The position numbers and the translations under genes were made by a program. A DNA stretch of 62,551 bases from Bdellovibrio sp. Lineage in GTDB: Bacteria > Myxococcota > SpSt-1050. This document shows, in pieces, positions 34,888-39,436 of the stretch. The DNA is taken from positions 1-62,551 of the forward strand of contig DYEF01000024.1 of NCBI GenBank assembly GCA_020725805.1, in the 5' to 3' direction. The notes beneath the pieces are model-generated. The model made no database searches. It worked only from the letters and a program-made list of their open reading frames with translations, and had not been told where the DNA came from. How positions within the stretch are numbered: position 1 is the first letter of the stretch; the number at the start of each line of letters is the position of its first letter.

Positions 34888-36465
34888 ATGAATCTGAAAG
34901 AATGGCTCAGAGTAAGGGAAATCGGTTCAGAAAGGTATTATCACAATCTCAGTGTTTCTCATCTCATTGAGGCAAGCATTAAAAAAGGTGAAGGTATTCT
35001 CGGGGCAAACGGGACTCTGATTGTGAGGACCGGAGAGAGGACGGGCAGGTCCCCGAATGACAGATTTATTGTCAGGGAAGAGACCAGCGAAAAAAATATT
35101 GAATGGAATAAGATAAATATTGAGACGACCATAGATGTATATGAGCATGTATATAAACGAATAAGGAATCATCTCAGAGGAAAAGAGATATTCGTCTTTG
35201 ACGGATATGTAGGTGCCGATCCGGAATACAGGTTAAAAATAAGAGTCGTTGCAGAACAGGCCTGGCATGCCCTCTTTGCCACAACACTGTTTATCAGGCC
35301 AAAACCTGAGGAAATTGTTGACTTTGAACCGGATTTTACGGTTTATGCCTGCGGGAACCTAAAACTGGAGTCAGAAAAGGACAAAGTAAAATCAAATACC
35401 GCCATTATTCTGAATTTTAAGGAAAGGACCATACTTATATGCGGCTCGAATTACGGCGGTGAGATTAAGAAGAGCATATTTACCGTGATGAACTACTTTA
35501 TGCCGGATAAAAACGTATTCCCTATGCACTGCTCGGCAAATATTGGTGAACGGGGAGATACGGCAATATTCTTCGGACTCTCAGGCACCGGTAAGACTAC
35601 CCTTTCGGCAGACCCTGCAAGGAGACTTATAGGAGACGATGAACACGGATGGAGTGACAAAGGCGTCTTTAATTTTGAAGGCGGCTGCTATGCAAAGGTA
35701 ATAAGACTCAGCAAGGTTTCGGAACCTCTTATTTACAACTCCATCAGATTTGGTTCCATTCTAGAAAATGTGATATATGATGAGAATACACGTATTGTCA
35801 ATTACGATGATGCATCTATAACCGAAAATACAAGAGCCACATATCCTGTTGATTTTATCCCGGGAGTTGTTCTTGAAGGTAAAGGTGACCACCCCGAGAA
35901 TATCTTCTTCCTGACGGCCGATGCCTTCGGAATACTTCCGCCGGTATCGAAGCTTGAACCCGAAATGGCTATGTATCACTTTCTTTCAGGGTATACTGCC
36001 AAAGTAGCCGGGACCGAGGCCGGGATAACAGAACCTCAGGCGACATTCTCAACCTGTTTCGGAGCACCGTTTATGCCGAGAAGCCCATGGGTATATGCGA
36101 AGATGCTCTCCGAAAAGATGAAGAGACATAAGGCCAGCTGCTGGCTTATAAATACAGGATGGAGCGGCGGACCTTACGGCGTAGGCAAAAGAATGAGCAT
36201 TGAACTTACAAGGTCTATTATAAGCGCAGCTCTAGGAGGAAAATTGCAGAATTCGAAATTTATCCGCCTTAATAACCTGAATCTCTTTGTACCTGAAAAG
36301 ATTGAGGGCATCGACAGCAGGCTGCTGATCGCTGAAAACACTTGGTCAGACAAGAATCTTTACAAAGAGAAGATGAAGTCACTGATTGCGATGTTCAATA
36401 AAAACTTCGAGAAATTCAGATCAGGTGCAGACTCTAAGGTAATCGAGGCCGGACCTCATCTCTGA
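34888..36465 (+). CDS. pckA: Phosphoenolpyruvate carboxykinase (ATP)
   Basis: PckA interconverts oxaloacetate plus ATP with PEP, CO2 and ADP, at the start of gluconeogenesis or in anaerobic CO2 fixation. The 525-residue length fits the ATP-dependent family. Signatures are TGRSPNDRFIV, the PEPCK kinase-1a loop GLSGTGKTTLSAD, GDDEHGW and the metal-site segment NFEGGCYAK. AAGG lies 8 nt before the ATG. It is downstream of the GAF gene by 9 bp. Its last 32 bp overlap the convergent hcp gene. Confidence 0.97.
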   Translation: MNLKEWLRVREIGSERYYHNLSVSHLIEASIKKGEGILGANGTLIVRTGERTGRSPNDRFIVREETSEKNIEWNKINIETTIDVYEHVYKRIRNHLRGKEIFVFDGYVGADPEYRLKIRVVAEQAWHALFATTLFIRPKPEEIVDFEPDFTVYACGNLKLESEKDKVKSNTAIILNFKERTILICGSNYGGEIKKSIFTVMNYFMPDKNVFPMHCSANIGERGDTAIFFGLSGTGKTTLSADPARRLIGDDEHGWSDKGVFNFEGGCYAKVIRLSKVSEPLIYNSIRFGSILENVIYDENTRIVNYDDASITENTRATYPVDFIPGVVLEGKGDHPENIFFLTADAFGILPPVSKLEPEMAMYHFLSGYTAKVAGTEAGITEPQATFSTCFGAPFMPRSPWVYAKMLSEKMKRHKASCWLINTGWSGGPYGVGKRMSIELTRSIISAALGGKLQNSKFIRLNNLNLFVPEKIEGIDSRLLIAENTWSDKNLYKEKMKSLIAMFNKNFEKFRSGADSKVIEAGPHL

Positions 36466-38107
36466 TATTTTCTTGCGAATAAATACTCTTCAGATCGCTC
36501 TCGGCACTACTGATACCCGAGATGCCAAATCTGTCTGATAGAATCTTTAGTACATTTTCACTTAGAAATGCCGGCAACGAAGGACCAAGTCTGATATTTT
36601 TTATACCAAGATACAAAAGAGCCAGTAATACAATAACTGCCTTCTGTTCATACCAGGCAATATTATAGACGATAGGCAATTTATTGATATCATCAAGTCC
36701 CAGTATCTCTTTCAGTTTTATAGCCGTTATGGCAAGTGAATATGAATCATTGCACTGCCCCGCATCTATGACTCTCGGAATTCCGCCTGCATCTCCGATA
36801 CCGAGCATATTATATCTATATTTTGCACAACCGGCTGTCAGAATTACTGTATCTTCAGGCAGTTTTTTGGCAAAATCAGTATAATACATTCTTTCCTTCT
36901 GCCGGCCATCGCATCCTGCCATAACTACAAACTTCTTAATCTGTCCGCTTCTTACGGAAGAGAGTATTTTGTCTGCAAGGTTAAATAGTGTATTATGACC
37001 AAAACCGGTCTTTATATACTTACCTTCTTTTTCGTTTGGTCCGGGCAGCGACAATGCCTTATCGATTAAAACTGAGAAGTCCTTTTGGCTTGTACCCTTT
37101 CTATCCGGGATATGAACACATCCGGGATATCCAGCCGTTCCGGTTGTAAACATATTTTCTCTGTATGATTCGTCAGGTTTGACGAGACAGTTTGTTGTAA
37201 AGAGAATTGCCCCCCTGAATTCAGCAAATTCACTTCTCTGGTTGTGCCATGCAGTTCCGAAATTTCCGATAAGATGCTCAAATTTCTTCAGCTCCGGATA
37301 GGAATGAGCCGGAAGCATCTCGCCGTGGGTATAAATATTGATTCCCCTTCCATCAGTCTGTTTCAGTAATTCATACAAATCGAGCAAGTCGTGGCCGCTT
37401 ACGAGTATCGCCGGACCCCGCTTTGTGCCTGTATATACATCGACAGGGACGGGATGACCAAAATGCCGAGTATTTGCCTCATCCAGTAACTGCATTACCT
37501 TCACACCGTATTCACCTGTTTTCATAACGAGAAGAATAAGATTATCCGGATTTTTTTCGGTAATAAGATTGCTCATTGCACTATGCAAAAAAAATGATAT
37601 TTCGGGATTATATCTGCCAAGTACAATTGCGTGATGTGCATATGCAGCCATCCCCTTTAAGCCAAAAAGTATTATATCTTTCAGTGATCTTACATCCTTA
37701 TCATCCGGTATATTTTTCATTTTCAGGTACTCCGATATCATAAGGTCTTTGTCTTCACTAAATGTCATTTCGCATTGATACGGGAGTTTCCCATTTGTAT
37801 CCACATTTAGCCTCTTTTTGATATCATCCCTTATCCCGATACCTTCTTTTATAAGGTCGTATATCCGTTTTTCGTCGAAATTTACATTTGTGATAGTAGA
37901 AAAGAGAGATTCCATGAGAAAAATATCAGCATCTTTTCTGATTATATTTTCATTACCCCCCTTTTCTACCAGAAATGAAATCCCCTTGCATACGTCAATC
38001 AGAATATCCATAAGATTGCTAAGTCCGGGAGATTTCCCGCACACACCTGTCCTTTCACAGCCATAGTTATTAAGTGCTTCCTGACACTGATTGCAGAACA
38101 TACTCAT
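36434..38107 (-). CDS. hcp: Hybrid cluster protein
   Basis: Hcp is a cytoplasmic Fe-S protein that detoxifies nitric oxide or hydroxylamine in anaerobes. The 557 residues include the N-terminal cysteine set Cys5, Cys8, Cys17 and Cys23 (C-x2-C-x8-C-x5-C) of the [4Fe-4S] cluster. Hybrid-cluster ligand regions visible downstream are HGEMLPAHSYPEL, TNCLVKP, TAGYPGCVHI, GCDGRQKER and TAGCAKYRYN. It is the last gene of ygbA-ferredoxin-hcp, with 14 bp before it, and its end overlaps pckA by 32 bp. The operator described upstream of ygbA probably controls it. Confidence 0.96.
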   Translation of the reverse strand: MSMFCNQCQEALNNYGCERTGVCGKSPGLSNLMDILIDVCKGISFLVEKGGNENIIRKDADIFLMESLFSTITNVNFDEKRIYDLIKEGIGIRDDIKKRLNVDTNGKLPYQCEMTFSEDKDLMISEYLKMKNIPDDKDVRSLKDIILFGLKGMAAYAHHAIVLGRYNPEISFFLHSAMSNLITEKNPDNLILLVMKTGEYGVKVMQLLDEANTRHFGHPVPVDVYTGTKRGPAILVSGHDLLDLYELLKQTDGRGINIYTHGEMLPAHSYPELKKFEHLIGNFGTAWHNQRSEFAEFRGAILFTTNCLVKPDESYRENMFTTGTAGYPGCVHIPDRKGTSQKDFSVLIDKALSLPGPNEKEGKYIKTGFGHNTLFNLADKILSSVRSGQIKKFVVMAGCDGRQKERMYYTDFAKKLPEDTVILTAGCAKYRYNMLGIGDAGGIPRVIDAGQCNDSYSLAITAIKLKEILGLDDINKLPIVYNIAWYEQKAVIVLLALLYLGIKNIRLGPSLPAFLSENVLKILSDRFGISGISSAESDLKSIYSQENIRDEVRPRLP

Positions 38108-38121
38108 AAAACCTCCTTTAA

Positions 38122-38946
38122 TTAATGGTTTTTAATCTCGCCGTTTATTGAAATAGTAATGTCTTTAAGTTCAATATCTTTACCTGACCTCTTAAGAGAC
38201 TCTTTTGCAATATGAACAATTCCGAAGCAACAGGGGACTTCCATATGTAACACCGTTATCGATTTTATATTGTTGGATTTTATCACTTCTGAAAACTTTT
38301 CTATATAATCCTCTATAGAATCATCCAGCTTCGGACAAAGAATAATTACCACTTTATCTTTCAAAAAATCAGAATGGAAGTTGGCGTAGGCAAACGGCAC
38401 ACAATCTGCAGCAAGGAGAATATCCGCATTTTCAAAGTAAGGTGCATAAGGACTGACCAGTTTCATCTGGACAGGCCAGTTCGAGAGATAAGAATCAGAT
38501 CTGCTGTTATTTACCGAATCCCTAATCTCATTCCGTTTTATTGAAACTGTCTTTGCAGAAGGACATCCGCTATGATGCAGTGGATGTTCTTCTTTCAGCG
38601 GATTCTCTACTCCCTTTTCCCTGAGATAATCAATTGCTTCATTAAATAATTTGATCTCACCATGTTGCTTTAAGTGTTTCAGATGAGCGATAATTACATT
38701 CTTCCCCTGCTTCACAATATTCTCCATTACCTTTTTCTCATCGTATGGACTGGCTTCTCTTTCAATTACTTCGATAGCGCCGAGAGGACACTCACCGACA
38801 CAGGCTCCGAGTCCGTCACAGAAAAGGTCTGAAATCAGTCGCGCCTTTCCGTCAATTATCTGTAATGCACCTTCTGGACAATTTGGGATACAGTTCCCAC
38901 AACCATTGCAAAGTTTTTCATTAATCTGAATGATCTTCCTTTTCAT
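38122..38946 (-). CDS. Ferredoxin-type electron-transfer protein linked to Hcp
   Basis: The 274-residue protein begins with two ferredoxin motifs: CNGCGNCIPNCP, and CDGLGACVGECP, in which the second Cys is Leu (a three-Cys variant I recall in relatives of this protein). A middle linker and a C-terminal domain follow, with CP, CPK and PCC cysteines (LLAADCVPFAYANFH, IILCPKLDDS, MEVPCCFGIVH). It lies between ygbA and hcp and probably supplies electrons to Hcp. The ATG at 38946 has AGGAGG just upstream and is preferred to an in-frame codon 39 bp earlier. Confidence 0.88.
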   Translation of the reverse strand: MKRKIIQINEKLCNGCGNCIPNCPEGALQIIDGKARLISDLFCDGLGACVGECPLGAIEVIEREASPYDEKKVMENIVKQGKNVIIAHLKHLKQHGEIKLFNEAIDYLREKGVENPLKEEHPLHHSGCPSAKTVSIKRNEIRDSVNNSRSDSYLSNWPVQMKLVSPYAPYFENADILLAADCVPFAYANFHSDFLKDKVVIILCPKLDDSIEDYIEKFSEVIKSNNIKSITVLHMEVPCCFGIVHIAKESLKRSGKDIELKDITISINGEIKNH

Positions 38947-38956
38947 TTTTATCCTC

Positions 38957-39316
38957 CTAAAAAAAATATCTGAATAATAGGTCAAACCTTCCGTGCATTA
39001 TCAGATGTTTACCGGAAAATCTCATCATTTTTTTCATAAATATTCTATGTTCATCCGAATAACATATTAAAGGGCATTTTTTACAGGATGGCTTGGGGTC
39101 ATAAGGACATAAAACCAGTTTGGTAACAGAATAGATAAACTCTTTTTTACATTCAGCACACAAAAATATGCCGCTTAAATCGTAACCTTTAAGTAATCCC
39201 AGCCCTGTAACTTTATCCCTTTTTCTGTCAGAATGAATATTACTGCAATAGACCCTGAAAAAGAGCTTTAATATCTCTATTTCTCTTCTCGATTTGTTTC
39301 CGTCCGGGTTCTTCAT
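38957..39316 (-). CDS. ygbA: YgbA-like nitrosative-stress protein
   Basis: The 119-residue protein matches the nitrous-oxide-stimulated promoter family (PF11756). Its conserved pattern is a Cys-rich series: YCSNIH, FLCAECKKEF, LCPYDPKPSCKKCPLICY, then the C-terminal MRFSGKHLIMHGRFD. E. coli YgbA is an NsrR-controlled gene induced by nitric oxide. The cysteines may hold a metal or Fe-S centre. The ATG at 39316 is preferred because an upstream in-frame TTG is the -35 box of the promoter. It heads the ygbA-ferredoxin-hcp operon. Confidence 0.86.
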   Translation of the reverse strand: MKNPDGNKSRREIEILKLFFRVYCSNIHSDRKRDKVTGLGLLKGYDLSGIFLCAECKKEFIYSVTKLVLCPYDPKPSCKKCPLICYSDEHRIFMKKMMRFSGKHLIMHGRFDLLFRYFF

Positions 39317-39325
39317 TGTACACCT

Positions 39326-39350
39326 TATTAGTAAGGACTCCTTACTAATA
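39326..39350. promoter_or_regulatory. Perfect 25-bp palindromic operator over the ygbA promoter
   Basis: The left arm TATTAGTAAGGA is followed by one C and then its exact 12-base reverse complement. The palindrome covers the -10 box and the predicted transcription start and reaches the ygbA ribosome binding site. This is the ideal place for a dimeric repressor, such as a TetR- or MarR-type or Rrf2-type regulator responding to nitrosative stress. The regulator is not in the window. Confidence 0.85.
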
Positions 39351-39373
39351 CACCTATTCAGACCGGATGTCAA
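39345..39373 (-). promoter_or_regulatory. Promoter of the ygbA-ferredoxin-hcp operon
   Basis: On the minus strand a perfect TTGACA (39368-39373), exactly 17 bp and TATTAG (39345-39350) make a good sigma-70 promoter. Its -10 lies inside the 25-bp palindrome. The untranslated leader would be only about 20 nt. Confidence 0.8.
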
Positions 39374-39436
39374 GATATATCTTTAAATTCGTATCAAATC
39401 AGCCTATTGTCATTTTAGGGTTAAAATCGTTTATTT

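Follow-up and report, generated by a model that had tools for sequence, protein, structure and literature searches.

What controls a ygbA-frdX-hcp operon whose promoter lies beneath a long, perfect palindrome? The regulators so far credited with controlling hcp, ygbA and nrf are NsrR, HcpR, NorR or two-component systems. The operon described here lies in a 62,551-nucleotide stretch of DNA from Bdellovibrio sp. (the whole of which is called the window), and a first reading of its letters alone (the sequence-only reading) had suggested a repressor of a class other than NsrR or HcpR. Sequence comparison supports that suggestion: the palindrome very probably serves as the binding site for a MarR-type regulator with four conserved cysteines (MarR hereafter), although its action as a repressor is inferred.

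The palindrome and the ygbA promoter

The elements of the locus, by window position, are:

39326 to 39350, no strand: perfect 25-bp palindrome, proposed MarR operator, conserved in a second genome of the genus (G001) and in distant genomes
39368 to 39373, minus strand: -35 element TTGACA; exact TTGACA recurs at operators of the family
39345 to 39350, minus strand: -10-like element TATTAG, inside one palindrome arm and the same in G001 (L011)
38957 to 39316, minus strand: ygbA, 119 aa, first ATG at 39316 (PF11756, E=2e-13; NF007714 above cut-off)
38122 to 38946, minus strand: frdX-type ferredoxin protein, 274 aa, with two 4Fe-4S motifs and a long C-terminal part
36434 to 38107, minus strand: hcp, hybrid cluster protein/hydroxylamine reductase, 557 aa (PF03063, E=1e-157; NF003658 and TIGR01703 above cut-off)

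The palindrome has the form 12+1+12, with the arms TATTAGTAAGGA and TCCTTACTAATA around a central C, and the profile matches agree with the naming of the three genes as YgbA, a ferredoxin-type protein and Hcp in the sequence-only reading. That reading had also placed the palindrome on the -10 element and start of a TTGACA-17-TATTAG promoter. The minus-strand elements are indeed as described: a 17-nt spacer separates TTGACA (39373-39368) from TATTAG (39350-39345), and the palindrome overlies the -10/start region of the operon's promoter. TATTAG matches TATAAT at only four of six positions, which is why a simple promoter scan missed the promoter. The end of the palindrome is 9 nt from the ygbA ATG (39316-39314). 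One A belongs both to the palindrome and to the AAGG Shine-Dalgarno sequence of ygbA, so that the palindrome does touch the ribosome binding site, as had been proposed. A search for a terminator found none. Around the -35 element there is a second, imperfect palindrome (GATATATC centre, window 39364-39391), which was not seen in the G001 upstream region examined.

Two outcomes would have refuted the earlier interpretation, namely many unrelated copies of the palindrome in the genome or a lack of conservation upstream of ygbA and hcp in relatives, and neither was encountered. Equally perfect palindromes are expected by chance 0.005 times per window and 0.28 times per genome, and the full palindrome is unique in the 3.29-Mb genome even when up to three mismatches are allowed. 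G001 carries TTATTAGTTAGGAATCCTAACTATTAA at the equivalent position ahead of ygbA-frdX-hcp, with an A-to-T change at the same base of both arms. Its promoter, TTGACA-17-TATTAG, is identical to that of the window, as is the gene order (Lon-like protease, TPR, nth, endonuclease V, ygbA, frdX, hcp), with hcp running off the contig end. Exact sites occur once per genome in the window's genome (G000), G001, G195 and G196. The window FrdX is 74% identical to that of G001 and 50% identical to that of G002, a genome of the same order which keeps frdX-ygbA and in which neither the palindrome motif nor a four-cysteine MarR was found.

The joint change of both arms in G001 would also be expected if the palindrome acted as RNA, in a 5′-UTR hairpin controlling translation of ygbA, and folding of the full palindrome does give a hairpin of 11 bp (-12.7 kcal/mol, z=-3.2). 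However, a transcript beginning at the predicted start would lack most of the first arm, and one starting inside that arm folds about as well as its shuffles (z=-1.0). In distant sites the core sequence is retained and the arms are short, and their near-fixed distance to TTGACA is that of a DNA site. A hairpin would be possible only if the whole palindrome were transcribed, which its position in the promoter argues against; we reject it as the main function and consider an RNA role highly improbable.

The regulator and the site at its own promoter

Scanning species genomes for FrdX yielded 80 loci, which were checked for the palindrome motif. The motif was conspicuous in four of them (L016, L017, L024 and L039), each with a MarR-family gene in the cluster; L016 reads motif-marR-ygbA-frdX, and in L039 the order is motif-frdX-marR and then nrfH-nrfA. 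At up to three mismatches the motif is present in all four FrdX loci that have this MarR nearby, versus 1 of the 76 others (Fisher p=3e-6). The window's genome encodes an orthologue of the L016 protein (51% identical) on contig C41:

G000:C41:5621-6274 (L099:5621-6274), minus strand: marR, head of a marR-nrfH-nrfA operon, found by a search with the L016 protein

The only 2-mismatch site in G000, TAGTTTGCATTCCTAACGA, lies 13 bp ahead of this gene, at the marR-nrfHA promoter. It sits over the -10/start of a TTGACA promoter and is degenerate in one half (GCATTCC). The sequence-only reading had proposed looking for a TetR, MarR or Rrf2 gene whose own promoter carries the motif, a description that this gene fits. 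Palindromes thus stand at both the ygbA and the marR promoters in a conserved geometry, from which binding by MarR is inferred. A motif search of G000 for further regulon members returned 14 sites with three mismatches versus 35 matches to a reversed-pattern control, and these sites are left uninterpreted because they do not exceed that control.

Both PF01047 and PF12802 score above cut-off in the G000 protein, and Foldseek matches its AlphaFold2 model to MepR and further MarR structures at a probability of 1.00. A MarR fold of about 145 residues is followed by a region with the pattern CxxC-x16-C-x15-C. All 23 family members that were aligned, the most distant at about 20% identity, have the four cysteines (C152, C155, C172 and C188), and the CxxC/C/C pattern is also present in the further relatives examined, except at L169, where the end of the contig truncates the locus. 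None of the solved structures matched by sequence or by Foldseek covers this region; the mean pLDDT of the model is 83, with lower values in parts of the region, which is therefore modelled with moderate confidence only. Judged by the cysteine pattern, the sensor may be a metal or Fe-S site, in the manner reported for ArnR (PMC12343034) and known of NsrR. That MarR has such a site at its C-terminus, and that it senses NO or nitrite, are inferences, and for an Fe-S cluster reacting with NO the only pointers are the cysteine pattern and the gene context.

Could the palindrome instead be the operator, with a drifted motif, of an N-oxide regulator already known, either NsrR (Rrf2 family) or an HcpR/FNR-type protein? 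In other organisms hcp is under the control of such families (PMC1274295), G000 itself has genes for one clear Rrf2 protein and for three HTH proteins of Crp type, and some Omnitrophota frdX genes lie directly 3′ of an Rrf2 gene. Yet the published boxes match the ygbA promoter poorly, in keeping with the earlier remark that the site is unlike those of NsrR and HcpR. The NsrR box gATGyAT-N5-ATrCATc does not fit, its best match being wrong at 4 of 14 positions, and neither do the HcpR boxes TTGAC-N4-GTCAA and GTAAC-N4-GTTAC, with 3/10 mismatches each (HcpR2 included). The CRP-like HcpR box TGTGA-N6-TCACA has a single 1-mismatch match, at -148, which falls inside the coding region of the upstream gene and is weaker in G001. 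Boxes for FNR/DNR, NnrR and NorR2 gave no convincing match at this promoter (FNR, 2/10 mismatched). Across genomes, moreover, the motif tracks MarR genes and not Rrf2 genes, and we give a drifted site for a known regulator very little credence.

A wider regulator-operator family

To judge from sequence matches, the pairing of MarR with TAGTTAG-N5-CTAACTA sites, often with the core AGGAnTCCT, recurs in Spirochaetota, the window's phylum, Aminicenantes, Deinococcus and alphaproteobacteria. The core [TC][ACT]GGANTCC[AGT][AG] is found within -100 to +60 of marR in 28 of 39 loci, where 0.011 are expected per locus; the count includes many close relatives but represents at least six separate lineages. 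No core was found beside marR in L101, L103, L104, L106 and L135-L138.

A four-cysteine MarR is encoded in 26 of 296 Spirochaetota genomes, and at 22 of these 26 loci frdX, ygbA, hcp, nrfH/nrfA or cytochrome P460 lies within about 1.5 kb of marR. With a consensus derived from other genomes, TAGTTAGN5CTAACTA is matched at two or fewer mismatches in 20 of the 26 loci (reversed control, 0/26). The operator centres differ here (TAGTTAGGAnTCCTAACTA, TAGTTAGAAATCCTAACTA, TAGTTAGTACTACTAACTA and TAGTTGGTACTGCCAACTA), with half-sites and length nearly constant. Of 26 promoters examined in the full family set, 18 carry an exact TTGACA upstream of the operator, at a distance of 24-30 nt. The promoter layout bears on whether MarR might activate at the palindrome, as some MarR proteins are activators. 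However, a site over the -10/start with TTGACA intact in most promoters of the family is in the position of a repressor, and activation seems to us a slim prospect.

Elsewhere in the window's phylum, TAGGAnTCCTA-type sites precede MarR, and protoglobin or cytochrome P460 genes adjoin it. At L115 a protoglobin gene (270-1142) is divergent from marR-P460 and has its own TAGGACTCCTA site at 1234, giving two operators in one divergent region. On the Thermus thermophilus HB27 megaplasmid pTT27 (L106:4527-5543), a cytochrome P460 gene is directly followed by that of a four-cysteine MarR; this cultured thermophile is a possible source of protein for structure work.

Plasmid-borne relatives in Deinococcus, Sphingomonas and Rhizobium have the core at marR and other neighbours, namely peroxidase-related genes, redoxin and an unassigned family. 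These neighbours imply that the signal of the family may be wider than N-oxides. Indeed, MarR might bind the palindrome and mainly sense peroxides, electrophiles or redox state, with the N-oxide genes belonging to a broader response and the cysteines as a Zn site or redox switch instead of an NO-reactive cluster. Catalase, SOD, redoxin or peroxidase-related genes adjoin plasmid-borne MarR relatives, and a CxxC-C-C pattern can bind Zn. Against this, linkage in the window's genus, in Spirochaetota and in other genomes of the window's phylum is consistently to hcp, ygbA, frdX, nrfHA, cytochrome P460 and protoglobin. Primary sensing of such other signals remains possible, but we regard it as unlikely.

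Several further observations concern these neighbourhoods. A family of about 240 aa is repeatedly encoded beside four-cysteine MarR (L102:4793-5536, L105:6026-6742, L108:4663-5379, L101:2822-3589 and L170:2258-3031); the four of these five members that were checked have no Pfam match, and in several loci a TAGGAnTCCTA-type site precedes its gene or marR. Fifty-five Enterobacter plasmid records match the G000 MarR by tblastn only, and the four cysteines are not established for them. Finally, three loci of Omnitrophota type (L018:4560-4991, L019:4590-4985 and L088:4569-4988) have an Rrf2-family gene directly upstream of frdX and lack the MarR operator, and apparently represent another regulator class for the same genes.

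Proposed control and known systems

Our preferred model is that a MarR dimer on the palindrome would cover the -10/start region and block RNA polymerase at ygbA-frdX-hcp, and that through the weaker site MarR would also shut off its own marR-nrfHA operon. Nitrite, NO or a related N-oxide such as hydroxylamine would act on the CxxC-x16-C-x15-C region, which most likely binds a metal or an Fe-S cluster. MarR would then leave the DNA, allowing nitrite reductase and the defences against NO and hydroxylamine to be made. The site over the -10/start, the site at the regulator's own promoter and the small regulon together point to a repressor, and nitrite or NO is inferred as the signal from the targets, which are NrfHA (nitrite to ammonium), Hcp (NO/hydroxylamine handling) and YgbA. 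The best reading of MarR is thus as an autoregulated repressor of N-oxide detoxification and nitrite ammonification, and we think it likely that the model as a whole, from operator through repression of both operons to release by an N-oxide signal, is correct. Its support at the level of sequence covers the operator and its conservation, the regulator, the site at the marR promoter, the gene linkage and the promoter geometry. Binding, repression rather than activation, the cofactor and the signal are inferred, and there are no binding, expression or NO-response data.

We lean, with only modest assurance, towards a broader proposal: that MarR repressors with a C-terminal four-Cys Fe-S/metal domain and TAGTTAG-N5-CTAACTA operators form a widespread N-oxide sensor class of their own. 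In several phyla (Spirochaetota, the window's phylum, Aminicenantes and probably Deinococcota and Alphaproteobacteria), this class would control Hcp/FrdX/YgbA, NrfHA, cytochrome P460 and protoglobin, and would do so independently of NsrR, HcpR and NorR. The open-access literature yielded no paper in which such a MarR or operator is connected with hcp, ygbA, nrf, P460 or protoglobin; the search did not extend to subscription papers or regulon databases, and prior mention is not excluded. The four-cysteine MarR/operator pair appears to be undescribed, and would constitute a new variant of nitrosative-stress repressor regulon, built on a protein family other than the known ones, with binding and NO response inferred. 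Such a system would account for N-oxide control in lineages without known boxes, would provide a predictable regulon for genome annotation, and would place protoglobin and cytochrome P460 under one regulator together with YgbA, which is poorly understood. It also offers, in MarR, a candidate NO sensor of the MarR family that can be tested directly.

Among known systems, the NsrR regulon of enterobacteria (hcp-hcr, ygbA, ytfE, hmp and nrf) is similar in its palindromic operator, its repressor control of hcp, ygbA and nrf, its nearly identical gene set and its cysteine-bearing NO sensor; for MarR, both the repressor control and the NO sensing are inferred. The two differ in protein family (Rrf2 versus MarR) and in operator (gATGyAT-N5-ATrCATc versus TAGTTAG-N5-CTAACTA), and the MarR cysteines are placed C-terminal to the MarR fold. 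HcpR of Desulfovibrio, Clostridium and others shares the targets hcp and frdX and a small regulon with MarR, but is of Crp/FNR type and uses TTGACnnnnGTCAA, GTAACnnnnGTTAC or CRP-like sites (PMC1274295, PMC12750200); the Porphyromonas gingivalis protein is heme-dependent, and its binding of NO leads to hcp transcription (PMC1274295, PMC12750200). CioR and OsbR of Chromobacterium violaceum are MarR-family repressors, as MarR here is proposed to be, and are tied to NO resistance or nitrate respiration. CioR is of GbsR type with one cysteine (C52) and OsbR is MgrA/OspR-like with two (55 and 133) (PMC11837568, PMC8567585); we reject both as relatives, since these cysteines differ from the four-cysteine C-terminus. 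ArnR of Corynebacterium, a MarR/ArsR-like wHTH protein, shares with MarR, as inferred from sequence, a C-terminal cysteine sensor region and the control of nitrate/NO genes. Its three conserved cysteines (179, 193 and 223) contrast with the four (CxxC-C-C) of MarR, it reportedly has no significant homology to known O2/NO regulators (PMC12343034), and the likeness drawn here is one of layout and proposed control. Nevertheless, ArnR is a [4Fe-4S] repressor of narKGHJI and hmp that is released by NO, the same mode of action as is proposed here for MarR.
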